36,075 nucleotides of DNA from a virus. The notes under the pieces were generated by a model, which was given only the letters and a program-made list of their open reading frames with translations, was not told where the DNA came from and ran no database searches. The position numbers and the translations under genes are program-made. Positions 3,101 through 34,202 of this stretch are shown here, one piece after another. The DNA is taken from positions 1 through 36,075 of the IMG/VR virus record IMGVR_UViG_3300027969_000015; one strand, given 5' to 3'. Position 1 is the first letter of the stretch. Every line of letters begins with the position of its first letter.

Positions 3101-3926
3101 CAGGCGTTGTACCGCCGGACGATACAACTGGGGCAGTGCCCGTCACGCTAGTGACAGTTCCAGATCCCTTGTTGTTAAACGTAGTCCAATCCGCTGCGCT
3201 CAACGCGCCCCGATTGGTTGCCGATGCGGTAGGCAAATTGAGCGTGATGACCGGCGTGGTGGTTGAATTGGCAACTGTAGAAGAAACATCCGTGCCTGTT
3301 GTTCCAAGCGTCAGCGCCGCAACGCTAGTGACGGTTCCACTAGAAGCACCAGCGTTAATTGTCTGATTGGGCCAGCTTCCCGTGATGGTGACATTGGTTC
3401 CCGCCACCAAAGCCGGTGTGGCCGTGCCAGTGCCACCACTAGCCACCGCAAGCGTGCCGCCAAGGGTAACAGCGCCAGTAGTAGCTGTCGCAGGCGTAAG
3501 GCCCGTAGAACCGCCGCTAAATGAATCCACGCCGGAGCTAGACAGGACGCTGTATTTGATGTTGCCTGCGTTGTTGACAACTTGCCAGGCGCTGCCGTGC
3601 GTGTAGGTCAGCTTGTCGCCTACCAGCAAAGTGACTGTGATGATTTTGTAAACAGTTGCCGTGTCTAGCAACTGAATCGTGACAACTTGAGAAGCTGAAT
3701 CTGTATTCAGCACGGTCACCATGTCAATGTCACGAATGACAGACGCAACAGGGGCAGAACAAATGGTTACGGCGGTTGTGCCGTTGGAATTTGCAAGCTG
3801 GGTGGAACCCAGATAGGTGGATGAAGTTTGATCCGAATAAGAGACAACGATTTGCAAAGGCGCAGTAGCTTGCGCCCCGCCAAGAATAAGGGTTAATGAC
3901 CTGTTTATCGTGTCTAGTCTTATCAT
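1..3926 (-). CDS. Large repetitive glycine-rich tail fibre, N-terminal and central part (runs off the window, continues at 35948)
   Basis: One reading frame is open from the ATG at 3926 to base 1 and continues after circularisation to a TGA at 35720-35722, giving 1384 residues. The protein is rich in Thr, Ser, Gly and Val and is built from recurring segments: GTVTSV linkers, blocks of the type SSGGATPAISMAAAT followed by GYLTSTDW and TFN(S/N)KG, blocks of GSPITTxGTLAISYSGTALPIANGG, and LNQNTTGxA linkers. This is typical of long phage fibres made of beta-rich repeats. After about residue 1130 it becomes a poly-glycine domain. The N-terminus (first about 120 residues) is non-repetitive and probably attaches to the tail. 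The start lies 3 nt after the stop of the preceding gene and has no clear ribosome binding site, so translation is probably coupled. Host recognition is the likely role; the receptor cannot be told from sequence. Confidence 0.85.
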   Translation of the reverse strand, partial: MIRLDTINRSLTLILGGAQATAPLQIVVSYSDQTSSTYLGSTQLANSNGTTAVTICSAPVASVIRDIDMVTVLNTDSASQVVTIQLLDTATVYKIITVTLLVGDKLTYTHGSAWQVVNNAGNIKYSVLSSSGVDSFSGGSTGLTPATATTGAVTLGGTLAVASGGTGTATPALVAGTNVTITGSWPNQTINAGASSGTVTSVAALTLGTTGTDVSSTVANSTTTPVITLNLPTASATNRGALSAADWTTFNNKGSGTVTSVTGTAPVVSSGGTTPAISMAAATTSTNGYLTSTDWNTFNSKGTGTVTSVSGTTGRVTSTGGTTPVIDLTSGVATAGTTGSASLIPVVTIDTYGRVTSITTAANPQGTVTSVTGTAPVVSSGGATPAISMAAATSSTNGYLTSTDWSTFNSKGSGSVTSVAATVPTFLSVTGSPITTSGTLAISYSGTALPIANGGSGEITAQLAMNAFAGAVTSGSYLRGNGTNVVMATIQAADVPTLNQNTTGTASNVTGTVAVANGGTGLTTTPANGALDIGNGTGFTRATLTAGTGISVTNASGSITIAATNSGTVTSVTGTSPVVSSGGATPAISMAAATTSVSGYLTSTDWNTFNNKGSGTVTSVSGTIGNITSTGGATPVIDLASGIATAGTTGSASLVPVVTIDTYGRVTSITTAANPQGTVTSVTGTSPIASSGGATPALSLSASYGDTQNPYASKTANYVLAAPNGTAGVPTFRAVVAADIPTLNQNTTGSAGSVANALTSGTGISFSSGTTYNGSAAITVNNSLPMVYPGAGIPNSTGTAWGTSYSTTGSGTVVALATSPSFTTPILGTPTSGNFSTGTFTWPTFNQNTTGNAATATSATTATNIAAGANLQIPYNTGSGATSFIAAPTIGSTYLQYNGTGFAWASAAGLGTVTSVAATVPSFLSITGSPITTAGTLAISYSGTALPIANGGTGQTTAGAAFNALSPITTTGDLIIGNGTNSATRLAIGANTYVLTSNGTTATWAAGGGGSGGLSWQSVQTANFTGVSGNAYPVNTTSAAITVTLPASPSAGNFLCLTDYAGTFATNNLILNPNGSKIDATTGNSYIQTTRSSIHLVYIDATQGWIPYSGFNTQTPAQSYSIDYLVVAGGAGSGGIQVGSGIAGGGGAGGYLTSTANVNIGTGYTVTIGAGGSGGAATGQVGFSGSTSSFNSTAPVGGGGGSPGRDTNIAGVSGGSGGGGGGGGGGSGTTAGSGTSGQGYAGGTGYTGPNYGSGGGGGAGAVGAAGTSAGGGNGGVGLNWQSLGTYYAGGGGGASYASGGTQGTGGSG
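1795..2160 (-). repeat. AT-rich duplicate of a fibre module
   Basis: Approximate limits. This segment encodes almost the same peptide as about 2755-3120 (a run ending in VTIDTYGRVTSITTAANPQG in both) but uses mostly A/T-ending codons, whereas the other copy uses mostly G/C-ending codons. Amino-acid identity with synonymous divergence points to an old duplication or to recombination with another phage's fibre gene. Confidence 0.7.
2755..3120 (-). repeat. GC-rich copy of the same fibre module
   Basis: Approximate limits. Protein-level counterpart of about 1795-2160, with codon choice matching the rest of the gene. Flanking copies of the SSGG(A/T)TPAISMAAAT unit occur on both sides, so this area holds several tandem units. 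Confidence 0.7.
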
Positions 3927-3929
3927 AAT

Positions 3930-4175
3930 TTACCCATGCGCCGCAGCAAAAGCATAAATGGCAGGCCCACTAGAACTTGTGGAAGCTGTAGTGATACTTG
4001 GAACCGCAGGCGGTGAAAGCTGCAAATCATCCAACGAAGTCTGGTTGCCGCCGCCGCCCGTTAAGGTAAACAAATTAAGAAAAAACCGATACCACTCACG
4101 CGACATTAAGCCTGTGCGAGGATCAATAAAATCAACCCGTGATGACGGAATGCTTGTGACGTTAAATTCAGGCAT
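3930..4175 (-). CDS. Small tail-associated protein
   Basis: 81 residues. The central SREWYRFFLNLFTLTGGGG stretch is a motif I recognise from many small proteins encoded between tail-hub and fibre genes of podovirus-like phages; its function is not known. The tail after it is low complexity (Ser/Thr/Pro/Ala). The start overlaps the end of the gp10-like gene by 8 nt, and the tail fibre starts 3 nt after its stop, so it lies inside a coupled tail block. A role in joining fibre to tail hub is inference from position only. Confidence 0.75.
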   Translation of the reverse strand: MPEFNVTSIPSSRVDFIDPRTGLMSREWYRFFLNLFTLTGGGGNQTSLDDLQLSPPAVPSITTASTSSSGPAIYAFAAAHG

Positions 4176-16451: not shown

Positions 16452-18521
16452 TCAGGATGAGGCCACAAACGGCTCATCTTTGTCCTTATCGGGGTAAATA
16501 ACCCAGCAGTATTCCGCTACATCCGTCTTGTGGTAACCCACCAACTCCTTGGCAAACATCGACTTCTTGCCCTTGTAAAAGTCCGTGTTGATGCTGCTGC
16601 TGTCACCCTTCAGCTTCACAAACTCGTCCTTCCACTCGTTCACAGTCACCGTCTTATGGCGCTGGTCACCCACATTTGTCATATGCCCATTCTTTTCTAA
16701 CGCCTTGTGGATAGCGTTTAAAGCGATTTGCTGGTTCTCTTGCAGCTTGCGTGGTTTGTCTTGGCGGTTGACTGCTTGCTGCTGCATTTCCTGCTGGATT
16801 GCCTCGTCACTGGCCCTGACCGCCAGACTGATCTGGGCTTCGCTGATGCCTAACTGGCTGCCCTGAATCTCCACCTTCACCATCTCAAAGCCAATCTTCA
16901 GACCGTCCTGGCCGTCCTTCTGCTTGCTGATCGTGAGAATTCCTGATCCCGCTATCGGGCTGGACGGGTTGGGAGTTGCGTCAACCTTCATCAGCTCCAG
17001 TTGGGTGTCAACGGCTCCCAGCAGGCTTGAGTGCCCACGCAAACCCTTGGTGGCATCCTTTCCGCTGTGATGCAACACCATCATGGCACATCCCAGCATC
17101 CGCTGAATCCGTCCCGCGTTATGGATAAACGCTCCCATGTCTTCGCTGTTGTTCTCGTTGCCACCGCCAAACGCCCTAGCTAACGTGTCAATCTGCACCA
17201 GTTCAAACTGGACGCCTGTCTTCTCCACCAGATCCTTGATCGAGGCCACCAGCAAATCAAAGTCATCCGCGCTGGATCTCATGTTTATCGCGGCCCTGAT
17301 GACGTAGATTTCTGCGCCGGCCTGAGTGCGGTTGTGCATCTTGCAGGCTTTGATGCGTGCGCCGATGCCGCCAAAGCCTTCCCCGCAGATGTACAGGACT
17401 GCACCGGCAGCTTGCACCTCCCGCCCCATCCACGCCCTGCCCGTTGCCACCGCCTCCGCAATGTCCAGCGCAACAAATGACTTGTAACTGCCTGGCGGCC
17501 CATACAAAGCGCAAAACGCACGCTTCGGCAGGACGTTGTCTATCAGCCACTCAACCGGCTCGTCCTCAATGTCATCCCAAGATTCAATGTTGAGCAGTTG
17601 CCGCGGGACTAGGATGGGAGGCTCTTCCTCGGGTAACGCTGCCACTTCCTCTACCGTTTCCCGTGGAACAATCCAATCAGGTGTCACAACCTGGTCTATG
17701 CTGGTGATAACCGGCAGCGCCTTGGCAAGTTCGGCTAACTTGGCGCGGTCACCGCCATCCGCTACCCACTCGTAGGCGTCATCCCCGAGTTCCGGTAAGT
17801 TAAAATCTAGCACTCGGATTGCTTTAGCCACCGGCAGCAGAGCCTGGACTACGCGCTTGGCGTACTTCCAGCCTGGTGCATCGCAGTCCGGAACCACTAT
17901 CACTACCGCGTTGGTGAAGTATTGGGTGATGTCTTCCGGCCAGTGGCTTGCACCAGCATGGGACGTAGTGGCAATGGCTCCAATGCTGACCAGGGCGTCG
18001 GCTGCCTTCTCGCCTTCCACTAGGTATATAGCGCGGCCAGCTTCCCTTGCGTTGATGAGTTCCGGCAGGCGGTAAGGCACTATCCGCGCCCCTGTCATGC
18101 TGCCCTTGCGGTTCCCAGCGGCATCCACCTTGTGCAAAGAGTACGTCTTACCCTTCTCGGTGTTGGTCTTGAACCGGCGCTTTACGAACAGCGTCTCGCC
18201 TTGCTCATCCTTGTACTCCCACTCGTTCTCCAACTGCGGCATGGTCATCAATTCACCTTTGATTAACTGGAGAGAATACTCTTGGCGCTGTAACGCTGGC
18301 AATAAGTTGCGTTCCCTGACAGCGTCAAATACTGAGTGCTGGTCGCACCCACCATGACAGTGGAATAAGAGTTTGCCATTGTCTTCCTTGATGCTGAGAC
18401 TCGGATTCTTGTCGCCGTTGCCGCGTCCGTGGCCTGCCACAGGGCAACTCGCAAGCCAGTTCCCGTTCACTTGCTTGGCGTTCCCTAGGGCTTTGGCTAT
18501 GTGTTCTGTTGAGTCTTGCAT
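16452..18521 (-). CDS. Primase-helicase (zinc/Toprim domain plus RepA/KaiC-like ATPase)
   Basis: 689 residues from the ATG at 18521, preferred over one 36 nt upstream because AGAGGTGG lies before it. The N-terminal zinc site of CHC2 type has C26, H31, C55 and C59 (CPVAGH ... FHCHGGC). A Toprim domain follows with VEGEKAADAL (E169) and the acidic VVPDCDAPG (D212, D214). The C-terminal ATPase has Walker A GPPGSYKS at 341-348, Walker B LVQIDTLAR (D445) and a sensor-like MMVLHHSGKD at about 481-489. It primes and unwinds DNA at the fork; the polymerase must come from the host, since none is encoded. The start overlaps the methyltransferase gene by 25 nt. The repeat cluster lies directly at its 3' end. 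Confidence 0.9.
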   Translation of the reverse strand: MQDSTEHIAKALGNAKQVNGNWLASCPVAGHGRGNGDKNPSLSIKEDNGKLLFHCHGGCDQHSVFDAVRERNLLPALQRQEYSLQLIKGELMTMPQLENEWEYKDEQGETLFVKRRFKTNTEKGKTYSLHKVDAAGNRKGSMTGARIVPYRLPELINAREAGRAIYLVEGEKAADALVSIGAIATTSHAGASHWPEDITQYFTNAVVIVVPDCDAPGWKYAKRVVQALLPVAKAIRVLDFNLPELGDDAYEWVADGGDRAKLAELAKALPVITSIDQVVTPDWIVPRETVEEVAALPEEEPPILVPRQLLNIESWDDIEDEPVEWLIDNVLPKRAFCALYGPPGSYKSFVALDIAEAVATGRAWMGREVQAAGAVLYICGEGFGGIGARIKACKMHNRTQAGAEIYVIRAAINMRSSADDFDLLVASIKDLVEKTGVQFELVQIDTLARAFGGGNENNSEDMGAFIHNAGRIQRMLGCAMMVLHHSGKDATKGLRGHSSLLGAVDTQLELMKVDATPNPSSPIAGSGILTISKQKDGQDGLKIGFEMVKVEIQGSQLGISEAQISLAVRASDEAIQQEMQQQAVNRQDKPRKLQENQQIALNAIHKALEKNGHMTNVGDQRHKTVTVNEWKDEFVKLKGDSSSINTDFYKGKKSMFAKELVGYHKTDVAEYCWVIYPDKDKDEPFVASS

Positions 18522-19789
18522 ATCGCGTCCACCTCTTGAATTCTTTTGCCGATCCATGCCATCACAGGCACAGCCATTGAGTTGCCTAACGCTTTGTACC
18601 TTGGCCCGTCAGGGGTTGCCTTGCCTTTGGGTTGGATGTCGGTGTAGCGGTCTGGGAAACCTTGCAGGCGCTCACACTCCACGGGAGTCAAACGGCGTAC
18701 TGCCATTGCTTGTAGCGCCATGTATCCAGCCGCAGCGTAATCAATGCTGTTGCTGAACCCGCCTGATGTTTTTCGGGAAAGCATTGTTCCAGCTACATCA
18801 TGAGTTGCCACCGCCATCGGATTCTTGGCTCCCAATGTCTGAGTCATGTCCACATCAGTCTGTGGGTTTGACATCTGACCGCTGAATGCAATGGGTTGCA
18901 ATATCGCCGTACCTTCTTGATGCATTTCTGGATTGCTTGCAGATGCATCTAAAGTCTTCGATGCATGGGCATCAGTGACATGAATATCATCTTTTAATGC
19001 GCCTTTACCCGGCGAGATGTTGTAAGCAATCGGTTGCATTGGCACGAGTATTGCGCCATCGCCATCGCCATCGCCATCGCTTGACGGCCCTTTATGGTCA
19101 CGCGCTTTGAGTGCTGGGCTAATCTCTGAGTGCAACACTGCAACCATTGCTTCAGCCTCTACTCTGTCATTCCCTGTGCGGCTGAAAGGAGCGCCTGATG
19201 CAATGCTGGCGGCAAAACTTTTCCCCTTTTCTCGGCTCGGCGCAGGATGCCCTTGCAAGCTGTAGCGCTCAAAAAGTACCGCTGCGGCAGGTCGCCAATC
19301 TCCAAGGTATCCGACAACGAACACACGTTTGCGTCGCTGTGCCACTCCGAAATACTGAGCGTCAAGCACCCTGTATGCGAACCCATACCCGCACTCTGCC
19401 AACCCTCCGAGGAGGGAACCAAAGTCCCGTCCTCCATTGCTGGACAAAACGCCGGGGACGTTCTCCCAAACCAACCAGTTGGGGCGATATCGTTGAGCAA
19501 TGGCAAGGTAGACAAGCATGAGGTTGCCACGCGGGTCATCCAATCCTTTTCTGAGTCCTGCGACTGAGAAAGACTGGCATGGTGTTCCTCCGACGAAAAC
19601 ATTGACATCTGCATTAGGCCACTCCTTAAATTTAGTCATGTCGCCCAAGTTGGGCACGTTTGGGTAATGGTGCTGTAGCACCTTGCAAGGAAACGGCTCA
19701 ATCTCCGAATACGCCACCGATTCCCATCCCAATGGATGCCAGGCGACACTTGCCGCCTCAATCCCACTGCAAACTGATAGAAATTTCAT
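18497..19789 (-). CDS. C5-cytosine DNA methyltransferase
   Basis: 430 residues with all landmark motifs in order. SAM-binding motif I is CSGIEAASVAWHPLGWESV with the following EIEP. The catalytic motif IV is GGTPCQSFSVAG with C71. WENVPG contains E109 (motif VI), QRRKRVFVVG at 151-160 is motif VIII, RRLTPVECERLQGFPDRY is motif IX and YKALGNSMAVPVM is motif X. The target-recognition region between VIII and IX is long and low in complexity, with an SSDGDGDGDGA stretch from a hexanucleotide repeat. No cognate restriction endonuclease gene lies nearby, so it is an orphan enzyme probably protecting phage DNA from host restriction. A strong terminator precedes it, and no good ribosome binding site is seen. 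Confidence 0.93.
   Translation of the reverse strand: MKFLSVCSGIEAASVAWHPLGWESVAYSEIEPFPCKVLQHHYPNVPNLGDMTKFKEWPNADVNVFVGGTPCQSFSVAGLRKGLDDPRGNLMLVYLAIAQRYRPNWLVWENVPGVLSSNGGRDFGSLLGGLAECGYGFAYRVLDAQYFGVAQRRKRVFVVGYLGDWRPAAAVLFERYSLQGHPAPSREKGKSFAASIASGAPFSRTGNDRVEAEAMVAVLHSEISPALKARDHKGPSSDGDGDGDGAILVPMQPIAYNISPGKGALKDDIHVTDAHASKTLDASASNPEMHQEGTAILQPIAFSGQMSNPQTDVDMTQTLGAKNPMAVATHDVAGTMLSRKTSGGFSNSIDYAAAGYMALQAMAVRRLTPVECERLQGFPDRYTDIQPKGKATPDGPRYKALGNSMAVPVMAWIGKRIQEVDAICKTQQNT
19055..19078 (+). repeat. Hexanucleotide repeat (GCCATC)x4 inside the methyltransferase gene
   Basis: Four perfect tandem copies encode the Asp-Gly run in the variable region of the methyltransferase. Length changes would stay in frame and alter only the linker, so it is unlikely to be an on/off switch. 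Confidence 0.85.
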
Positions 19790-21726: not shown

Positions 21727-22551
21727 TCAGTCCCCGCAAAAGCAGGCAATGCTTTCTTCTGCTGGATCAAACATATCGCGCTGATCAACAGCGAATGCCG
21801 CCATTTGAGCGTAGCTAGGCCGGTCGGAACGGAACACCGCACCGCTTGGCTTGGATGCCAATGCCAATGCCAATGCCTCCATCTTGGCCCACCATATAGC
21901 ACGTTCTGGTTTTTCTGCAATTAGAGATAACACCTGTGCGCCGCCCTTCAAAAAACATAAATCGCAATTTCCATGCATAGTCACGCCGTTCATGTTAGGC
22001 AGGCCAAGATCAAATGGCTGCGACTTCCAAAATGCAGAAATGTCTGACTTGGTGATGCCAGCAGTCACCAGTGGAATGCGTGACTTGTCAGCAATTTTTG
22101 CGGCTCGGCGCTGCTCGTCTGCTCTCATGCCAACCCAATCCATTGACTCGTTGTGCGCCCAGCCCAGCGACTTCAGATACTTGTGAATGCTGCGGATCTT
22201 CAGCTCCACGGTGCAGAACCTGGTAACCGGATTAGGTAGGTAATTCCGCTTGCGGATCAGCGCCTCAAACGGCTCACCATCGCGGCTGGCGGTTTCAAAC
22301 GTCACGCGCTTGAATGCTAGATCAGCGTTTTGGAACTCAACCCAATGAACCTCAACATTCCACTGCTCTGAGCAATCCTGCACAAACCGCAGAGTCGCCT
22401 CATCTTCCTTGCCGGTATTCGCAAAGCAGACAATCGCCTCCGCTGGCAAACCGCCATTGCTTTGCAGTACGCGCCAAAGCATATAGGCACTAGTGCGCCC
22501 ACCGCTAAACGATATGCACGTTGGCTCTGTGATTTTGAATGGGTCAAGCAT
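21727..22551 (-). CDS. Phosphoadenosine phosphosulfate reductase (PAPS reductase) family protein
   Basis: 274 residues. The PP-loop SGGRTS is at 16-21, followed by YMLWRVLQ and an IVCFANTGKEDEATLRFVQD segment typical of the family. The cysteines lie in RFCTVELKIR, GNCDLCFLKG (CxxC) and a C-terminal ACFCGD, resembling the Fe-S-type members and phage homologues. PP-loop enzymes adenylate a substrate. Relatives include CysH, the DNA-phosphorothioation protein DndC and tRNA thiolation enzymes, so sulfur assimilation is not certain. It shares an operon with DpdA-like, transporter and methyltransferase genes, so a nucleic-acid modification role is worth considering. It overlaps the RuvC-like gene by 8 nt. 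Confidence 0.85.
   Translation of the reverse strand: MLDPFKITEPTCISFSGGRTSAYMLWRVLQSNGGLPAEAIVCFANTGKEDEATLRFVQDCSEQWNVEVHWVEFQNADLAFKRVTFETASRDGEPFEALIRKRNYLPNPVTRFCTVELKIRSIHKYLKSLGWAHNESMDWVGMRADEQRRAAKIADKSRIPLVTAGITKSDISAFWKSQPFDLGLPNMNGVTMHGNCDLCFLKGGAQVLSLIAEKPERAIWWAKMEALALALASKPSGAVFRSDRPSYAQMAAFAVDQRDMFDPAEESIACFCGD
21856..21873 (+). repeat. Hexanucleotide repeat (TGCCAA)x3 in the PAPS-reductase-like gene
   Basis: Three perfect tandem units plus TGCC encode alternating Ala-Leu (EALALALAS). In frame; any slippage would keep the reading frame. Confidence 0.75.
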
Positions 22552-23026
22552 TGCGTGTTATGTACCAGTAAGCAATCAAAGCAGCATCTGCGCGGCCATC
22601 GTCCTTCGCACGCTTGAACAAATCAGCTTTGCTTGGGAACAGTTCCATAGCACGCATACGGCTTGCATCCTTACCCGCTGCGCGGCCCACAGCCTTCGTC
22701 CAGGCGGCAGGGGTGACGTAGGTGCTTGGGAAGTGCATAGCGGCCACAACGCCCTCAATAATGCCTGCGCTGCGCCCAAAATTGAACATGGAAACAGACC
22801 CGTTCCCGGGGAGTGCGCCAACCTTCTCAATAACAACGTGCGCTTCATTTCGCGGATACCAGCCATCTAGTATGTCCACCAAGGTCACCGCTGAAATATG
22901 GCTCTTCATCGTCTTGCCAGATGCAATTTTCAGCGTAGGCATATCCACTACACAGTCCAGCACTCCATCCTCAAAGAATGCAATGGCTCCGCTGATGCCT
23001 GGGTCGATGCCGATAACGAAGCTCAC
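22544..23026 (-). CDS. RuvC-like Holliday junction resolvase
   Basis: 160 residues, GTG start at 23026 in a GTGA overlap with the transporter stop. The RNase H-like fold is recognised by VIGIDPGISGAIA (D8), VVIEKV (E67) and the C-terminal KDDGRADAALIAYW (D142/D143 and D147), matching the spacing of the four acidic residues of bacterial RuvC (D7, E66, D138, D141). PGNGSVSMFNFGRSAGIIEGV is also typical. It resolves branched DNA produced by replication and recombination before packaging. It is phage-encoded, so junction resolution need not rely on the host. Confidence 0.9.
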   Translation of the reverse strand: MSFVIGIDPGISGAIAFFEDGVLDCVVDMPTLKIASGKTMKSHISAVTLVDILDGWYPRNEAHVVIEKVGALPGNGSVSMFNFGRSAGIIEGVVAAMHFPSTYVTPAAWTKAVGRAAGKDASRMRAMELFPSKADLFKRAKDDGRADAALIAYWYITRNA

Positions 23027-23493
23027 TTAACTTTCCCCAGCAACACAGACCAAACATATCCACCAGCGACCTTAGCGGCAAATTGCAGGGCAATGATTTC
23101 CGGCATCAGCACACCGAAAGCAATGGTCGGGAACGCCACAGAGTCAACTGCTGCACCAGCAACATTGGACACATTGGCACGCTTGAACCATGACCCTGTC
23201 ACCTTTGAGAACACCGCCCAATCGGCCAACGCCGCCAGCGTGAAAGATGCAGCAGATGCTACGGCAATCATGCCAGCATCCTGGTTCAAGGCATAGGTCA
23301 GGATGCCGCTGACTGAAATCAAGACCGCCATCTGCCACGCCTTAATCTGCATTTGCAACCAATCCCGTAATGCCAGGTCAAGGCCAATAAACAGAAACGC
23401 ATTGATAGGACTGACCCAAACGCCAAAGGTGGCAATGGATAGGTTTGCCAATGTCATGGCAATGGCGTAGACAATGATGGCGGCAATCAGCAT
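23023..23493 (-). CDS. VUT/YhhQ-family queuosine-precursor (preQ0/preQ1) transporter
   Basis: 156 residues from the ATG at 23493, chosen because it starts a membrane segment (MLIAAIIVYAIAMTLANLSIATFG) and overlaps the previous stop by only 7 nt. About five or six hydrophobic segments. The motifs ATFGVWVSPINAFLFIGLDLALRDWLQ, AALADWAVFS and RANVSNVAGAAVDSVAFPTIAFG are the diagnostic ones of the VUT_1 (PF02592) family. E. coli YhhQ imports 7-deazaguanine queuosine precursors. It is shorter than YhhQ (221 aa), as phage versions can be. The overlap with the DpdA-like gene strongly suggests joint function in 7-deazaguanine use. Confidence 0.88.
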   Translation of the reverse strand: MLIAAIIVYAIAMTLANLSIATFGVWVSPINAFLFIGLDLALRDWLQMQIKAWQMAVLISVSGILTYALNQDAGMIAVASAASFTLAALADWAVFSKVTGSWFKRANVSNVAGAAVDSVAFPTIAFGVLMPEIIALQFAAKVAGGYVWSVLLGKVK

Positions 23494-24167
23494 AAAACTT
23501 CCTGTAGTGGTTGATTTTTCCAGTGTGCTGGTGGGTTTGTTGAGTCGATGCGTTTTGCCATGCAACCAGCGCATTCCAAATGCTCTGCATGGTGCAGCGC
23601 AACATTGGTCGAATCGGCACTTGCCAAAGGCCACGGGCCGCTTGATTGCCCAAGCATACGCATTCCATGCACCCAAGGGATTTGCTTGCCGTAAGTGTTC
23701 ACCAGGGCGTTGAATGCCTCGTCCATACGGTGACACCACTTGGATGTGCCAATCTGCCAAAACTCACCAGCCGACCCAAAGCATACCCGTCCCCAAGCAT
23801 CGCACAATTCAATCAGGTAGGAAATCGAAAGTCCGAGATGCCAAACTGGAATGCCCATCTCCTTGCGGAAAGGCCAAGACTTCACCATTTCGCGCTGCTC
23901 GTCTTCCGACCCGTCAATCACGTCAGGCACAACACCCCAATGCGGATGCGCCAGCAAGGGTTCCACCCAGCCATAAAACCCATCGCGGTCAAAGGGTAAG
24001 CCTCTCGTCTTCGCGCTGAATGCGCCGTTGTCCAACATCAAAGATTGACCAATACGCAAGCAACGTTTGAGATCATCGGGACGTGCATACGACACACAAA
24101 AGTGCTTGCCGCCCATTGTCTCTATGGCCTTCATGGGACTGATAGGCGTCCCGTGATAGTGAATCAC
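23487..24167 (-). CDS. DpdA-like (TGT-fold) 7-deazaguanine insertion enzyme, putative
   Basis: 226 residues from the GTG at 24167, which overlaps the regulator stop as GTGA and has GGAGAGCC upstream. Conserved pieces suit the tRNA-guanine transglycosylase / DpdA superfamily: LMLDNGAFSAKTRG with D46 (the substrate-binding Asp position), WGVVPDVIDG with D82, PVWHLGLS, WVHGMRMLG, and LASADSTN with D185 at the place of the nucleophilic Asp. A CxxC (C199, C202) with nearby His residues may be a remnant zinc site. In bacteria and several phages DpdA exchanges guanine in DNA for preQ0-type bases. It is shorter than bacterial TGT (about 375 aa). Assignment is by motif and by the adjacent precursor transporter, so fairly but not fully secure; acting on tRNA is the alternative. 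Confidence 0.72.
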   Translation of the reverse strand: MIHYHGTPISPMKAIETMGGKHFCVSYARPDDLKRCLRIGQSLMLDNGAFSAKTRGLPFDRDGFYGWVEPLLAHPHWGVVPDVIDGSEDEQREMVKSWPFRKEMGIPVWHLGLSISYLIELCDAWGRVCFGSAGEFWQIGTSKWCHRMDEAFNALVNTYGKQIPWVHGMRMLGQSSGPWPLASADSTNVALHHAEHLECAGCMAKRIDSTNPPAHWKNQPLQEVLC

Positions 24168-24394
24168 TGCTGGCTCTCCTTCTGCAACGCCAGCAGCCTG
24201 GCTTCCACCAGAGCATCGCAAGCCTCTTGCAGATTGATAACGGCGCTGTACAGTGGAACGACCTTGCCGGTAGACCAGCGGCTCACCTGGGCCTTGTCAA
24301 TGCCTGCGGCGTAGCTGACGTCTGACAAGGTGAAACCTGACCTTTCCGCTTTCTCGCGTATGGCTCTGATTGCAATTTGTGTAGTGGATTCCAT
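24164..24394 (-). CDS. Cro/CI-like helix-turn-helix regulator
   Basis: 76 residues from the ATG at 24394. A helix-turn-helix is visible in FTLSDVSYAAGIDKAQVSRWSTGKVVP (about residues 18-44), the usual HTH_3 layout with a Q-V-S-R-W recognition helix, and there is no further domain, so it is Cro-like in size. AAGGAG lies upstream, about 14 nt from this ATG. It is the first gene of the leftward early unit, and the upstream divergent region contains a 22-bp palindrome over a promoter, its likely operator. It probably controls the divergent early promoters; without an integrase gene, lysogeny is not shown. Confidence 0.82.
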   Translation of the reverse strand: MESTTQIAIRAIREKAERSGFTLSDVSYAAGIDKAQVSRWSTGKVVPLYSAVINLQEACDALVEARLLALQKESQQ

Positions 24395-24415
24395 GATTAG
24401 ATTATCATCTCCTTG

Positions 24416-24444
24416 TTGACGCATTTTACACGGGAAAGTATAGG
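24416..24444 (+). promoter_or_regulatory. Sigma70-type promoter for the rightward early unit
   Basis: TTGACG (24416-24421), exactly 17 nt spacer, TATAGG (24439-24444). The -35 box has five of six consensus bases. The -10 box lies inside the 22-bp palindrome. The first downstream gene starts at 24538, so the leader would be about 85 nt. Confidence 0.6.
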
Positions 24445-24453
24445 TAGTTTCCC
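24432..24453. promoter_or_regulatory. 22-bp palindromic operator candidate
   Basis: The sequence reads GGGAAA-n-TA-nnnn-TA-n-TTTCCC, symmetric at 16 of 22 positions with a four-base centre, the form expected for a dimeric Cro/CI-like protein. It covers the -10 box of the rightward promoter and, on the other strand, a TATACT hexamer that could be a leftward -10. Binding would block both. Confidence 0.7.
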
Positions 24454-24475
24454 TAATGCATTTCGCAACTGCTGT

Positions 24476-24505
24476 TTGTGATGTAACTGTCAACTGCGAT
24501 ATGAT
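24476..24505 (+). promoter_or_regulatory. Second candidate rightward promoter
   Basis: TTGTGA (24476-24481), 18-nt spacer, TATGAT (24500-24505). The -10 is good, the -35 moderate. The spacer holds AACTG repeats (GTAACTGTCAACTGC), possibly a further regulator site. It would start transcription about 25 nt before the first gene. Confidence 0.4.
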
Positions 24506-25811: not shown

Positions 25812-26020
25812 TCCATATCCTTTACATACCCGTCCTGTTTGTCTGCATGAATGGCAACTGCGAGTTCATGCAGGCGCAGACCTCATACAAATCAGAGCAG
25901 CAATGCCGCGCCTCAATAGACGTGCAAAAAGAAAATTTGCAAAAAATGGCGCTCAAAGGTGGTCAGATGGTCACGCTGATTGAGGGCACTTGCATCACGC
26001 TCAAAGGTGGGATGCTATGA
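25808..26020 (+). CDS. Small Cys-containing envelope protein, early copy of a two-member family
   Basis: 70 residues from the ATG at 25808 (ATGA overlap with previous stop). A hydrophobic start (MIHILYIPVLFVCM), then a pattern C-x5-CEF-x3-QT-x-Y-x5-C-x3-I and, near the end, GTCIT. The same pattern occurs in the minus-strand gene 27744-27971 of the lysis region. Four conserved cysteines after a membrane or signal segment suggest two disulfides in the periplasm. Not assigned to a named family. The stop overlaps the next gene's start (ATGA). Confidence 0.7.
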   Translation: MIHILYIPVLFVCMNGNCEFMQAQTSYKSEQQCRASIDVQKENLQKMALKGGQMVTLIEGTCITLKGGML

Positions 26021-26397
26021 CCGGATTTGAATCAAAGAGTGAAGCGGCTGCGGACAAGCAGAAAGAATATGACCCGTGCCTTCATTGCATCAAAGGCGTT
26101 GTTTGTAGGACACCGAAATGTGGTCGCCTTGCGTTGCCACTTGACCATCCATTTCGTAATGCACAGCCAGCGCAGGAGCCTGTGGCGCACGTTTATTTGT
26201 TTGACCGTGCGGGCAGACCCCTCATTGCGTGGAATAACGCTAAAGGCATCAAGATAGGCGACAAACTCTACACCGCACCATCACAGCGCGAATGGGTAGG
26301 GCTGACAGATGAGGAGATTGACGCATGGACACCAGAAATTCACGTCGTAATTCGCGCCATTGAGCAAGCCTTGAAGGAGAAAAACGGATGCGCCTAA
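26017..26397 (+). CDS. QPAQEPVA-module protein 1
   Basis: 126 residues, ATG at 26017 in an ATGA overlap. A Cys-rich N-terminal part (DPCLHCIKGVVCRTPKCG, possible zinc binding) is followed by AQPAQEPVAHVYLFD, then KLYTAPSQREWVGLTDEEIDAW and a C-terminal helix. The PAQEPVA ... LYTAPxQR ... LTDEEI architecture is very common in small phage accessory genes of Betaproteobacteria phages; to my knowledge no function is established. It shares DNA-level repeats with the next two genes. Confidence 0.75.
   Translation: MTGFESKSEAAADKQKEYDPCLHCIKGVVCRTPKCGRLALPLDHPFRNAQPAQEPVAHVYLFDRAGRPLIAWNNAKGIKIGDKLYTAPSQREWVGLTDEEIDAWTPEIHVVIRAIEQALKEKNGCA
26164..26187 (+). repeat. QPAQEPVA-encoding repeat, copy 1
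   Basis: 24-bp unit beginning CAGCCAGCGCAGGAGCC. Identical copies are at 26556-26579 and 26727-26750, and a copy with two changes at 27095-27118. All four are in the same frame within three consecutive genes. Confidence 0.9.
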
Positions 26398-27020
26398 CCC
26401 GTAAAACCGACCACACTCAACTACTGGAAATGCTTGCTTATCGCGCCGAGTGCTTTCCAAACTATCCGATTGGCGGGCACATTCCCGAAGTGTTTGCCGC
26501 GCTTGGCAGGCCAATTCCGATTGGGGATTTGTTGGCACAGCCACCCCTGCCAGTGCAGCCAGCGCAGGAGCCTGTGGCGTGGGCTGACCTTGTAAAAGAG
26601 GCGCAACAAATCGTGAAATCAAAATTTCTGTGGAAAAAGTTTATTGATAAAACACCACTAGCAAACGACATTGCTTGTTGGATGGCTGACTTTGCTCAAC
26701 AGCACACCACACCACCCCTGCCAACACAGCCAGCGCAGGAGCCTGTGGCGTGGATATGGAAAGATATGCGCGGGCAAGACATTGTTAGCTTGTTTGAGCC
26801 ACGATTTAATTCAATTCCTCTCTACACCGCACCATCACAGCGCCAGCCGCTGACGGATGAGACAGAAGCCGTAATTGCAGCAGCAAAAGCAGCAATGGAT
26901 GCTAGTTTCGAAACCAAAAACAGGGAATTAGACATATCAATCCCCGCACACCTTGCCGCTGCTTTGAGTTTACGGCTTGATGAGTTTGAAGCCGCCCACA
27001 ACATAGGAGCCAAGCCATGA
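26388..27020 (+). CDS. QPAQEPVA-module protein 2 (two modules)
   Basis: 210 residues, start overlapping the previous gene by 10 nt. An N-terminal domain (RKTDHTQLLEMLAYRAECFPNYPIGG, ending in GDLLAQPPLP) precedes two copies of PxQPAQEPVAW at about 56-66 and 113-123. A unit WIWKDMRGQDIVSLFEPRFNSIPLYTAPSQR and a C-terminal helical part (EAVIAAAKAAMDASFE, HLAAALSLRLDEFEAAHN) follow. It looks like a mosaic in which interchangeable units are strung together by a Pro/Gln linker. Function unknown. The stop overlaps the next start (ATGA). Confidence 0.75.
   Translation: MRLTRKTDHTQLLEMLAYRAECFPNYPIGGHIPEVFAALGRPIPIGDLLAQPPLPVQPAQEPVAWADLVKEAQQIVKSKFLWKKFIDKTPLANDIACWMADFAQQHTTPPLPTQPAQEPVAWIWKDMRGQDIVSLFEPRFNSIPLYTAPSQRQPLTDETEAVIAAAKAAMDASFETKNRELDISIPAHLAAALSLRLDEFEAAHNIGAKP
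26556..26579 (+). repeat. QPAQEPVA-encoding repeat, copy 2
   Basis: Identical to copy 1. The upstream CCACCCCTGCCA context is also shared with copy 3, so this pair is longer at DNA level. Confidence 0.9.
26727..26750 (+). repeat. QPAQEPVA-encoding repeat, copy 3
   Basis: Identical to copies 1 and 2, preceded by CCACCCCTGCCAACA. A second shared segment, CTCTACACCGCACCATCACAG, recurs at about 26269 and 26820 downstream of copies 1 and 3. Confidence 0.9.
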
Positions 27021-30074: not shown

Positions 30075-30298
30075 TATTTGTCCTTGTCTTGTTTGTTTTC
30101 CAAACGGTCAAAAATCTTACTCAGCATCTCTTTGATTTCTTTCATGTCGTCGCGGTAGTCCTGCCGGGCGACGTAGACCAATGGTAGTTTACTCAGGTCT
30201 GTTTTCAGTTCCTGCACCGCCGACCACAGTTCACGGGCGAACCATCCAGCCACCGTCAAAGCAGCGCCAAATAGGATGTTGAGTAGATGCTGATCCAT
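30074..30298 (-). CDS. Small membrane-anchored coiled-coil protein
   Basis: 74 residues: an N-terminal membrane segment (LLNILFGAALTVAGWFARELW) followed by a charged helix (VQELKTDLSKLPLVYVARQDYRDDMKEIKEMLSKIFDRLENKQDK). This is a frequent phage protein type near lysis and tail genes with no settled function. TAATG overlap with the upstream ejection-protein gene. Confidence 0.7.
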   Translation of the reverse strand: MDQHLLNILFGAALTVAGWFARELWSAVQELKTDLSKLPLVYVARQDYRDDMKEIKEMLSKIFDRLENKQDKDK

Positions 30299-32205
30299 TA
30301 TCTTCCTGCTTGTAGCGCTTGTTGGAATCGTGGGTCAACTGCCGCATTAGCACGCAAAAATTCCTCAAACGCGCTTTGCTGCTGGTTGGCTAGTTGGTTG
30401 GCTGCAAGTGTGCCGGTTTTGATGCCTTGGTTGGCGCGTAGCTGATTGGCTACAGCCGCCGCACCGGCTGGCCTAGCGGTCAATGCGGCAGCCGCCAAGC
30501 GTTGGCCTGGTGCTGAGTACAGCGCAGGGCCAGCAAGCATTCCAGCGGCAATCGCTGGGTAACCAGCGCCTGCTGCACCGCCTGATGCAATCAGTGCTGC
30601 CAATGACCGATAAGGTGTGCCGGAGTCAGGCAACTTGTTGCCCAATACGGTTTTGCCCGTCTCAGACAGATCCTGCATCAGAGCCTCGCCGGTAGCAAAC
30701 CTTGACTTGTCTTTGCTGCGATCCATAGCACGCACTGCGCTTTGCAATTGGGCCGGCGAGAAAATACCCTCTTCAGCGCCCGTGATTCCAGACGCCCGTT
30801 GTACTCGCTTGAAGTTTGCATATCCGGTGTCAATTGCTCTTAATTCCGCAGCATTTTGCGGATTAGACCTAATCACCAATTGACGAAATTGGTCTTGCAC
30901 TTCTTGAAGTGCTTGACCCATTAGTCGCTGATCAGCATCAGTTGAGGCACTAAGCAAATTTATGCGTTCGCGCAAGTCACTCTGAATCTGTTTCAGTGTT
31001 TGGCCAGTAATCGCTTGTTGGCCTTGAAATTTGTTGACCACATTGGTGTCTAGGAATCTGTCAAATGCTCTTACTGCATTAGGATCAATTGCGCCTTGCT
31101 GAACCATTTGGCGAAGATTGCCAATTTCAGCGCCAAATACAGGATCTGCTTGCACCGTCATCCTTGGCAACAAATTTCCATATGCATCGTCCAATCTGTC
31201 AGATACAAATTGCACTGCTTCTCGGCCAGTAGTGCCTTCGGGCAATGTTTGTCCAATTGGCCTTAGTGCCCTATTAAATGCGGCAGTGTTTAACTGCTCA
31301 ACTGCTCTGTTTTGTGCTGACTTGATAAAGTCACCAATGACGGGAATGCTGGTCAAGCCTTCCTCAAAACGCTTGTAGCCACCACCAAGGATTTGGCCTG
31401 TAGTGGGCGTTACGCCTTCAGCCATAAGCGCTCTGACGCCAGGGTCAACCGTTGGGTTAACCATTGCCGCAGCGGGACGGGTAAGCATATTGATTGGGTT
31501 GGTGAGTTCACCGCCCCGAATCAAAGCATTGGCTACAGGCAATGTTGCGCGAGAAATTTGTCCAGCAATTGGTGCTCCTCTAGTTCCGGCTGTTGCGCCT
31601 AAACCTAAAGCGGTAGTGCCTCGCAACAATGCACCGCCACCGCCTAGCACCGTGGATACATCACCCACAACGCGAAACGGGTCTTGCTCCATCATTTGCT
31701 GAAAGCCTGCGCCTGTGCCGTAAGTTTTGGCGTAATCTTGACCTACTACATTTGCGGTTTGAATGGCACGTTTTTGCGCTTCTGGGTTAAACTCAATTGC
31801 ATTAAGTCCTTTTTGTATTGGTTCTGGCAAAGCGTTGTACACACCTCCCGCCACAATGTCGCCAATGCCTTGCGCGGTCTGCAATGGGCTTGATACGGCA
31901 TCCACTAAGCCGCCAATGGTGTTTTTGTACAAGCTAGGAAAGAAACTACCAGCAGTCGCAAACGGGTTGTAGCCTGCTGGTTGCTCTGCTTCTACCGCTG
32001 GTGCTGCGGCTGGCGTTCCTGCGCGAGCAGCAGGCATACCTTCACTGGCGGGTGCGCCTTTTTTGCCACCGTCAACGCCAATTACATTTTTGCCAAAGTC
32101 TTGCTGGGCGCGTTGCTGCACCGCAGCAGGCGTCAAATCATCAGGCGCGTTTTGATAGACATGGGTTGTCCCATCTTCAAATGTGATTGTGATATTGCGT
32201 GCCAT
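30298..32205 (-). CDS. Internal virion / DNA ejection protein
   Basis: 635 residues from the ATG at 32205 (TAATG overlap with previous stop). The first about 50 residues are a small domain (NITITFEDGTTHVYQNAPDDLTPAAVQQRAQQDFGKNV). A hydrophobic Gly/Ala-rich section follows (GGLVDAVSSPLQTAQGIGDIVAGGVYNAL, VVGDVSTVLGGGGALLRGTTALGLG), then the conserved VTPTTGQILGGGYKRFEEGLTSIPVIGDFIKSAQNRAVEQLNTAAFNRALRPIG. The centre is helical and the tail Ala-rich and hydrophobic. This composition suits P22 gp16/gp20-like proteins that are stored in the head and cross the envelope ahead of the DNA. Confidence 0.78.
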   Translation of the reverse strand: MARNITITFEDGTTHVYQNAPDDLTPAAVQQRAQQDFGKNVIGVDGGKKGAPASEGMPAARAGTPAAAPAVEAEQPAGYNPFATAGSFFPSLYKNTIGGLVDAVSSPLQTAQGIGDIVAGGVYNALPEPIQKGLNAIEFNPEAQKRAIQTANVVGQDYAKTYGTGAGFQQMMEQDPFRVVGDVSTVLGGGGALLRGTTALGLGATAGTRGAPIAGQISRATLPVANALIRGGELTNPINMLTRPAAAMVNPTVDPGVRALMAEGVTPTTGQILGGGYKRFEEGLTSIPVIGDFIKSAQNRAVEQLNTAAFNRALRPIGQTLPEGTTGREAVQFVSDRLDDAYGNLLPRMTVQADPVFGAEIGNLRQMVQQGAIDPNAVRAFDRFLDTNVVNKFQGQQAITGQTLKQIQSDLRERINLLSASTDADQRLMGQALQEVQDQFRQLVIRSNPQNAAELRAIDTGYANFKRVQRASGITGAEEGIFSPAQLQSAVRAMDRSKDKSRFATGEALMQDLSETGKTVLGNKLPDSGTPYRSLAALIASGGAAGAGYPAIAAGMLAGPALYSAPGQRLAAAALTARPAGAAAVANQLRANQGIKTGTLAANQLANQQQSAFEEFLRANAAVDPRFQQALQAGR

Positions 32206-34202
32206 TACCAATTGCTCACAGTTGCGGGTGCTGCCTTACTTTTACCGGAAAGAGTGGGACTAGCTTTATATCCTTGATCTTCCCCATAAGTTTCGGATAA
32301 CCCTTGTTGATTCAATTTTGCCCATTTCAGCATTGACTCAAGTTTGGTCTTAGCATTGTCTGCCCTATCGGTTGGGGTAGGAATAAATCCCAAACGCTGC
32401 ATTTCGCCTACAGACACAGCAGACCCGCTGCGATCATGTATTACCAAAGAACCAATGTCGCTAATCGCTGACCTTGCCGCCACTCCTTTTGGATCCATTC
32501 GATCTAACGCTTGACCTGGCAAAAGATTTTTTAATCCAACTGCATCAGGATTCTTTTTAATCAAATCCAACGCTTCTTGAATCCGTTTAATTGACATATC
32601 GTTTGTGCTAATAGCCGTATTGATATGGGCAGGAATAGGTTTAAGCTTTTCTTGTTTATCAGCAGGGCCACCTGGAATAGGTTCAAGGTTCTCGCCAGTA
32701 GCGTCATAACGGTATCCACTAGGCGGCTTGGGTTTGCCAGCCGCTGCCTGTTTATTCGTGCCGACTTTGCCAGCAACAGGCAATGCTCCACCTTCAATTG
32801 GAACGCGAACAAGTTTTCCTTCTGCGTTAAGGGTATGCGGAATTCCCTTAATGTTGATGATTTTTGGTGCAGCTACAGCTTGAGATTTAGCGGCAACAGC
32901 AGGCAGTACGCCACCTTCAACAGGGACAGGTACAAGATTTCCATCTTCGTTAAGGGTATGCGGAATGCCTTTAATGTTGATGATCTTTGGTGCAGCTGTA
33001 ACCGCAGCAGCGGGCAATGCCCCGCCTTCAACGGTTAATGGTTCAAGATTTCCTTCTGCATTAACGGTGTGCGGAACACCTTTAATGCTAATAATTCTGG
33101 GTGCTGCTGCGGCTGCTGGGATTTTGTCCTTCGCAATGATTAAGCCTGACTCAGTGTCCAAAGCCGCGCCAGCGCCAAGACTGATATATCGCTGGCCTTG
33201 ATTGCGTTCAACTTTCACCGCTTGTTCAAAAGCCTTGATTAGCAACTCACGCTCTTGTGCCCATCCCGGCGTTGCAACTCCTCCACGCGCAAATCTTTGA
33301 TTGCCATCTTGAATTTTCTTCATTAGGGCAGCAGGATCTTGCAAAGGATTAACCGCTTTCTTTGCCATTGCGTTAACGGCAGGCGCAGCGGCAACTGCCG
33401 GAGCCAAGGCATTAACAGATTCACCTTGAACTGGCGCTAATTCAGCGGGAATAGGCTCTCTTGTCAAAAGGCCACTAGGGCTTAAAGTCCATCGCATCCC
33501 AGGAAACTCTTTAAGACTTGCCGTTTCCCCGTAATTTTTTAGCTTATCAACAATTTGGCTTTTAAATTTAGCGTTTATTTTTACGTCGGGCGCTATGTCT
33601 ATAGTTCCTTCGGCTTCAATTGCAACAGGTTTAACAGGAAAAGCAACAACTCCCCTACCTTGGTCAATACCAACAGGCGCAGGCATCCCAGGCGCAACCA
33701 TTGGCGCAGCAACATTGTTAGCGCTAGGCGCAACTACGGCTGGCAAACCGGCAGGCGCAGGCGCACCAGCAAGCCGGTCTTCCTCGTATGCTTTCTCATT
33801 TGCCCTTTGATATTCATACGCTTGCAATATTTGCAAAGATTTTAGAAGCTTCTCCCCACCGTCCCGCACTATAGAGTTAGAGCTGTTAAACATTTCTTTT
33901 GCGGCTTGAAAAGGATCTCGCGGCGCGTCTGGAAACTCTGCCGCCTTTGCCATAATTCCATTAACAATATTTTTTGCTTCATTTACCTCATCAAACGTCA
34001 TCTTGGCTGTTGCAGCGCGGGATTGCTGCTCTTGCATCCGATACGGCGCTAGTTGCCGAGCCTCTTGCATCTGCATCTGTGCAAGCTGATTTTGATTTTG
34101 GGCAGATTGCATCTGCGCTAATTGGTTGTATTCTGCGCCAAGGTCTCGAAATTGAATTTTGAGTGGTCTTCCACTCATTGGTATGCTTGTGTCTAAAGGC
34201 AT
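32205..34202 (-). CDS. Internal virion / DNA ejection protein with tandem repeats
   Basis: 665 residues. A Gln/Met-rich helical N-terminus (YNQLAQMQSAQNQNQLAQMQMQEARQL) precedes a long Ala/Pro/Val-rich disordered region. That region contains three tandem units reading AP(K/R)IIxIKG(I/V)PHTxNxxGxL followed by an EGG(A/V)LPxA tail. The C-terminus (SAISDIGSLVIHDRSGSAVSVGEMQRLGFIPTPTDRADNAKTKLESMLKWAK) is a conserved ending seen in phage ejection proteins. It stands between the other ejection protein and a gp7-like gene, the P22 gp7-gp20-gp16 arrangement. Similar role likely. Confidence 0.78.
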   Translation of the reverse strand: MPLDTSIPMSGRPLKIQFRDLGAEYNQLAQMQSAQNQNQLAQMQMQEARQLAPYRMQEQQSRAATAKMTFDEVNEAKNIVNGIMAKAAEFPDAPRDPFQAAKEMFNSSNSIVRDGGEKLLKSLQILQAYEYQRANEKAYEEDRLAGAPAPAGLPAVVAPSANNVAAPMVAPGMPAPVGIDQGRGVVAFPVKPVAIEAEGTIDIAPDVKINAKFKSQIVDKLKNYGETASLKEFPGMRWTLSPSGLLTREPIPAELAPVQGESVNALAPAVAAAPAVNAMAKKAVNPLQDPAALMKKIQDGNQRFARGGVATPGWAQERELLIKAFEQAVKVERNQGQRYISLGAGAALDTESGLIIAKDKIPAAAAAPRIISIKGVPHTVNAEGNLEPLTVEGGALPAAAVTAAPKIINIKGIPHTLNEDGNLVPVPVEGGVLPAVAAKSQAVAAPKIINIKGIPHTLNAEGKLVRVPIEGGALPVAGKVGTNKQAAAGKPKPPSGYRYDATGENLEPIPGGPADKQEKLKPIPAHINTAISTNDMSIKRIQEALDLIKKNPDAVGLKNLLPGQALDRMDPKGVAARSAISDIGSLVIHDRSGSAVSVGEMQRLGFIPTPTDRADNAKTKLESMLKWAKLNQQGLSETYGEDQGYKASPTLSGKSKAAPATVSNW
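32771..32870 (-). repeat. Ejection protein repeat, unit 3
   Basis: About 100 bp encoding the third KIINIKGIPHTLN unit of the ejection protein, with approximate edges. Confidence 0.75.
32894..32993 (-). repeat. Ejection protein repeat, unit 2
   Basis: Second unit. Its DNA is close to unit 3 around TAAGGGTATGCGGAAT, so this pair is probably a recent duplication. Confidence 0.75.
33005..33104 (-). repeat. Ejection protein repeat, unit 1
   Basis: First and most divergent unit (RIISIKGVPHTVN). Confidence 0.7.

Follow-up and report, generated by a model that had tools for sequence, protein, structure and literature searches.

Many phages encode a DpdA-type enzyme and have no synthesis of their own for its substrate, which raises the question, posed in the literature (PMC6884629, PMC8306585), of where the base comes from. 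The same question is posed by a single linear-type virus contig of 36,075 bases (the window, that is, the whole stretch of DNA analysed here), which may be slightly incomplete. In it, a first-pass annotation had described a DpdA-like gene overlapping a gene for a queuosine-precursor transporter and had proposed that the two form a compact scavenge-and-insert pair. Genes for portal, scaffold, major head protein, head closure Hc3, DNA ejection and terminase were found in the record, as were primase/helicase and DNA methyltransferase genes. This gene content agrees with the podovirus-type label that the small freshwater phage had been given.

The two genes lie in a chain of overlapping minus-strand genes comprising an HTH frame, DpdA, the transporter (VUT), a RuvC-like resolvase and a PAPS-reductase-like gene. 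The gene at 23487..24167 (-) begins with GTG and encodes the DpdA-type base-exchange enzyme of 226 aa; the gene at 23023..23493 (-) begins with ATG and encodes VUT (156 aa), a proposed importer of preQ0-type bases. The DpdA stop and the VUT start share 7 nt (23487..23493, -). On re-reading of the sequence both the span of the pair, annotated as 23023-24167, and the length of the overlap were exact. Directly upstream, an HTH regulator reading frame (24164..24493, -; HTH_31, E 1.5e-5) overlaps DpdA by 4 nt, and directly downstream a RuvC-like Holliday junction resolvase (22544..23026, -; phrog_1770, E 7.7e-34) overlaps VUT by 4 nt. Both are context and lie outside the mobile unit described below, as nucleotide matches to unrelated loci end at the DpdA start codon and the resolvase is missing beside the pair in many loci. 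The last gene of the chain (21727-22551, -) encodes a PAPS-reductase-like N-type ATP pyrophosphatase with a CDLCFLKG motif (phrog_424). Some loci have a relative of it (52-86% identity) at varying distance from the pair but most have none, and the gene thus seems to move separately. It was considered as a substitute for QueC and rejected, since the QueC model gave no match and the gene is often absent beside the pair.

In profile searches the enzyme was matched by phrog_887, named 'queuine tRNA-ribosyltransferase' (E 3.1e-47), a family that also matches the DpdA of phage CAjan (E 8.2e-96), and hhalign comparison of a 63-member family alignment (A4) with CAjan DpdA gave an E-value of 6.4e-12 and a probability of 97.5. 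D46, D82, H110, H167 and D185 are invariant in the 63-member alignment, so that the D46, D82 and D185 motifs first read in the sequence are indeed present. D46, H110, H167 and D185 align with Asp and His residues of CAjan DpdA, the segment LDNGAFSA lying opposite LDSGAFSA (D46) and SADST opposite SCDSS (D185). D82 is invariant in the short family, yet stands opposite a Ser in CAjan DpdA, whose Asp falls at D85. The Pfam TGT model did not match the window enzyme, but since it also missed the proven CAjan DpdA, this was not counted against the enzyme. No match emerged when the DpdA alignment was compared by hhalign with bacterial TGT proteins taken from 18 genomes, a sequence search of solved structures gave nothing useful, and an alignment built from 29 diverse DpdA proteins proved too variable to serve in a contig scan. 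The structure model of the enzyme was poor (pLDDT 60, pTM 0.63), and Foldseek returned for it weak, low-score TIM-barrel matches with no TGT among the best 50 listed. Taken on the profile evidence, the DpdA-like identity first suggested for the protein was upheld, and its membership in the DpdA family is supported. Its length, which had been regarded as notably short, is normal for this branch, as relatives are about 225-280 aa long and the 26 database relatives have open frames of 227-280 aa.

Like the enzyme, the transporter could be placed in a family. Pfam Vut_1 matches it at 33 bits (cut-off 27.2), as does phrog_4899 (E 3.3e-33), which also matches the transporters of PS25B.1 and Pam5. 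Its model has six long helices (pLDDT 93.4) and in structure comparison weakly resembles ECF S-components of several substrates. The description of the gene as VUT/YhhQ-type was thus borne out at the family level, but not as a YhhQ equivalog, as it scored 18.7 bits against a cut-off of 252 with the NCBIfam model for YhhQ (preQ0/preQ1 transporter), with which a Serratia protein, a true YhhQ, scored 374 bits. Because this cut-off was missed, the sequence of the window VUT is best filed with the Vut_1/QPTR superfamily and not as a YhhQ ortholog. The window VUT has in common with QPTR/YhhQ (COG1738) the Vut_1 domain, the six helices and a set of invariant residues (N17, D44, A79, S80, D91, D117 and F121, found in the window VUT, the Serratia YhhQ and all other aligned proteins), whereas a true YhhQ is 221 aa long and the window protein stays far under the equivalog cut-off. 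Transport of preQ0 was reported for YhhQ, a member of the QPTR family (Zallot 2017, as cited in PMC11130926), and the substrates of the family vary, being preQ0/preQ1 in E. coli and queuine in Chlamydia (PMC11130926). A bacterial relative of the phage-type VUT, in Rhizobiales bacterium AFS063105 (L226/L230), overlaps queC by 8 nt; in L230 queC lies at 2853-3575 and the short Vut_1 gene, at 3568-4146, begins within the queC end. This overlap provides independent context for a preQ0-related VUT substrate. In mEp021 and its kin a Vut_1-like gene (L120:3956-4468) lies between nearby DNA methyltransferase genes, and no DpdA was found within the 8 kb examined; mEp021_31, upstream of VUT, was considered as a hidden DpdA and rejected, being a DUF6378 protein.

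Profile searches found no QueC, PTPS/QueD, GTP cyclohydrolase I (FolE) or radical-SAM (QueE) domain anywhere in the window record, in line with the reported absence of folE, queD, queE and queC. The window phage, allowing for a record that may be slightly incomplete, falls in group 3 of Hutinet 2019, which has DpdA without FolE, QueD, QueE and QueC. Across 39 records (the window, 11 viral relatives and 27 database phages) QueC was found in none, and PTPS gave two matches only, in DMCA and SW9, both under the cut-off. Among bacteria, the closest carriers are a Betaproteobacteria MAG (L142, 84%) and Ideonella livida (L143, 67%), where terminase, baseplate and tail genes lie alongside and mark the locus as a prophage; this makes a betaproteobacterial host likely for the window phage. 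Both of these carriers have QueC, QueF and TGT, and the sole Vut_1 match in each is the phage copy. Of the two sources that had been suggested, import and the host pool, host supply is thus at least as likely as import. In a QueC-bearing host, VUT would supplement synthesis with an import route and would not cure a deficiency. A general role of VUT in the rescue of preQ0-deficient hosts was rejected on the same ground, as it is only in the more distant carriers Rhizobium subbaraonis and Devosia that a full-length QueC match was not seen, and both have Vut_1 genes of their own besides that of the phage.

The pairing of the two genes recurs widely. We identified 71 window-type viral loci, four of which have too little flank to be read; VUT lies directly downstream of DpdA in 66 of the remaining 67. 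When the search was made from the VUT side, the neighbour was DpdA even where it was only about 36% identical. Twelve of 26 database phages with this DpdA type carry both genes, and in all 12 the pair lies within 1.5 kb, in both gene orders and with 10 directly adjacent. The chance of such co-location would be about 4e-14 if the pairs were independent, a figure that overstates their independence, as RCIP0319 was found via VUT and three are related Drexlerviridae. Database phages with no neighbouring VUT had none elsewhere in the genome either. Outside the window type a neighbouring VUT is optional, being found in 7/18 of the Pam5-type, 6/14 of the AB3P2-type, 4/18 of the MED16-type and 3/4 of the PEAT2-type (counted as 90% clusters with readable flanks). 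On a DpdA tree of 107 rows, 68 of which have no VUT nearby (that is, within 1.5 kb), the presence of VUT changed at least 23 times, gain and loss being indistinguishable on this tree, and gene order changed at least 6 times. Among 75 distinct pairs, 62 have an overlap of 4, 7 or 10 nt between the two genes, and 12 have a gap of 216-235 nt with a small reading frame inside it in the three that were read.

The sole window-type locus without VUT (L028) has a short VUT-like N-terminal remnant (IYPAI, L028:3340-3420), which suggests that VUT was lost there by deletion. In L101, L105 and L111 the DpdA-VUT gap of about 230 nt is filled by a conserved small frame of roughly 70 aa.

Blastn comparison of the window with the other loci indicated how far the unit extends. 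Many loci match over the pair only (for example, at about 84-90% identity, L011, L018, L009/L078, L012/L076, L013/L080 and L017/L082). On one side these matches end at 24166-24168, where the start codon of DpdA lies, and on the other at 23039-23080, shortly before VUT ends; several of these loci have no or few other blastn matches in their 3-8 kb flanks. Twenty-one distinct loci match over both genes and have 1.5 kb or more of flank on each side, and in 15 of them the match is bounded at the pair edges. The two genes are thus transferred together, and they also exchange partners, as some loci keep DpdA (80-86% identity) with a different VUT (about 52%) and others keep VUT (65-71%) with a different DpdA (about 36%). 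It follows that each partner is replaceable while the pair persists. The dN/dS values of 0.03-0.07 for DpdA and 0.04-0.11 for VUT mean that neither gene is decaying, and both are under strong purifying selection. The link between DpdA and VUT is therefore strongly supported by recurrence, unit-wise horizontal movement, partner exchange and purifying selection, and the pair looks like a mobile two-gene cassette, without synthesis genes, that recurs in many otherwise unrelated phages.

Several described phages resemble the window phage in part. The Escherichia phage CAjan, a Seuratvirus which has dPreQ0 in its DNA, has a DpdA of the same PHROG 887 with aligning Asp and His positions, but this protein is 306 aa long against 226 aa in the window, and the preQ0 synthesis genes, all of which CAjan encodes (PMC6884629), are missing from the window. 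Pantoea phage MED16 has in common with the window the short DpdA type (37-40% identity) and the lack of preQ0 synthesis genes, but no Vut_1 gene was detected in its genome; its DNA contains dADG at about 0.13% of G, as determined by LC-MS/MS, with no restriction protection (PMC8306585). Phage Orion, with DpdA alone and a host without preQ0 synthesis, has no modification (PMC6884629). In Pantoea phage Vid5 (2018, PMC6266253) and Enterobacter phage EC151 (2021, PMC8310023) a putative preQ0/preQ1 transporter of the Vut_1 family was described beside DpdA, within the DpdA cluster, and salvage was already proposed. However, three or four preQ0 synthesis genes are present there, whereas the window pair stands alone as a mobile unit. 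Vibrio phage PS25B.1, Pectobacterium phage PEAT2, Acinetobacter phage AB3P2, Pseudanabaena phage Pam5 and Rhizobium phage RHph_N3_2 lack QueC and have a Vut_1/DUF165 gene next to DpdA or almost next to it, and one of their transporters is annotated 'putative preQ0 transporter'. They differ from the window in that the proteins are about 21-47% identical to those of the window and the gene order is reversed in some. YhhQ homologs were noted by Hutinet 2019 in some phages, uncorrelated with any group (PMC6884629). The literature searched, coverage of which was partial, yielded no account of a mobile DpdA-VUT cassette that lacks synthesis genes and can exchange its partners. What had made the scavenge-and-insert pair seem worth attention is thus to be divided, as an importer beside DpdA was proposed in 2018 and 2021, so that preQ0 import by a phage is already a published idea; what looks new is the form, a recurrent, synthesis-free, mobile two-gene cassette.

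The best reading of the pair, which we consider reasonably probable, is that of a self-contained, horizontally mobile cassette for import and insertion. It draws on the family membership of both proteins, their overlap, recurrence, joint transfer, partner exchange and purifying selection, the absence of synthesis genes, the queC overlap of a bacterial VUT relative and the preQ0 transport reported for YhhQ. We infer that during infection VUT would sit in the host inner membrane and bring in a 7-deazaguanine base (preQ0 or a close relative), so that more of it would be available in the cytoplasm. DpdA, as a TGT-type transglycosylase whose conserved Asp would be the nucleophile, would then swap guanines in the phage DNA for this base, the likely benefit being protection from host nucleases. 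Several observations count against this reading, namely the poor model of the enzyme with its weak TIM-barrel matches, the varied substrates of QPTR proteins, the VUT of mEp021 without a neighbouring DpdA and the many DpdA relatives with no VUT nearby. The sparse modification of MED16 and the unmodified DNA of Orion also run counter to it and advise caution in speaking of hypermodification of the window phage DNA; the pair may raise low, MED16-like levels of modification, or the modification may serve another purpose. A bolder version strikes us as rather doubtful. In it the transporter replaces the whole four-enzyme preQ0 pathway, and phages that hand the cassette on to each other build modified genomes from a base taken up out of the water or released by cells nearby, with VUT variants that suit different imported bases and are swapped as the supply changes.

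It is also conceivable, if unlikely, that DpdA is fed mainly by a base that the host makes, with VUT in a supporting role, in which it adds a little to the pool or helps to retain the base, and with sparse modification as the outcome. The QueC, QueF and TGT of the two betaproteobacterial carriers, with no Vut_1 but the phage copy, would be in keeping with this, as would the common occurrence of short-DpdA phages without VUT and the low-level modification of MED16, which has no detected VUT. On the other hand, the strong purifying selection on VUT and its retention in 66/67 window-type loci argue against a dispensable role, and the host of the window phage is itself only likely, being judged from the carriers of its relatives. 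If VUT instead imports some other compound, such as queuine, a different purine or a vitamin, and is linked with DpdA for the sake of a different step, which we hold to be improbable, then its score under the cut-off of queuosine-transporter equivalog models, the varied substrates of the QPTR family (PMC11130926), the mEp021 VUT without a neighbouring DpdA and the weak likeness to ECF S-components would all be accommodated; the repeated pairing with DpdA, the bacterial relative that overlaps queC and the invariant residues common to the window VUT and true YhhQ speak against such a substrate.

Deletion of DpdA in CAjan abolishes dPreQ0 in the phage DNA (PMC6884629), and the inclusion of this protein in the family makes it quite improbable that the pair acts on tRNA, as a TGT-like enzyme and a Q-precursor importer that together raise queuosine-type modification of host or phage tRNA. 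The ancestral activity is that of TGT, the PHROG family bears the name of the tRNA enzyme and the model left the fold of the window enzyme unsettled (pLDDT 60), all of which would suit an action on tRNA, but hosts already have TGT and the gene sits in a DNA recombination/replication cluster. That the adjacency reflects nothing but phage modularity, with two unrelated passengers of one lineage, could draw on the close relationship of many of the metagenomic loci to each other. It is made extremely improbable by the DpdA tree, on which VUT was gained or lost at least 23 times and gene order changed at least 6 times, by cassette edges at the gene ends, by partner exchange and by the co-location of the genes in 12/12 database phages.

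Should the import-and-insert reading hold, a recurrently assembled enzyme-transporter cassette that moves as a unit would offer a testable answer, namely salvage, to the source of the base in some DpdA phages without their own synthesis. Phage DNA modification would then be tied to the exchange of queuosine precursors among microbes, and the pair would provide a very small tool for putting 7-deazaguanine bases into DNA.

Elsewhere in the window, the DNA methyltransferase frame (18497-19789, -), which gives this phage a DNA modification gene of a second kind, overlaps the primase/helicase frame (16452-18557, -) by 61 nt. In the structural region two big overlapping frames (30298-32211 and 32205-34202, -), of 637 and 665 aa, are without any PHROG match. 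Adjoining frames at 25990-27020 (+) contain repeated 'QPAQEPVA' and 'LYTAPSQR' segments and apparently represent a duplicated repeat protein.
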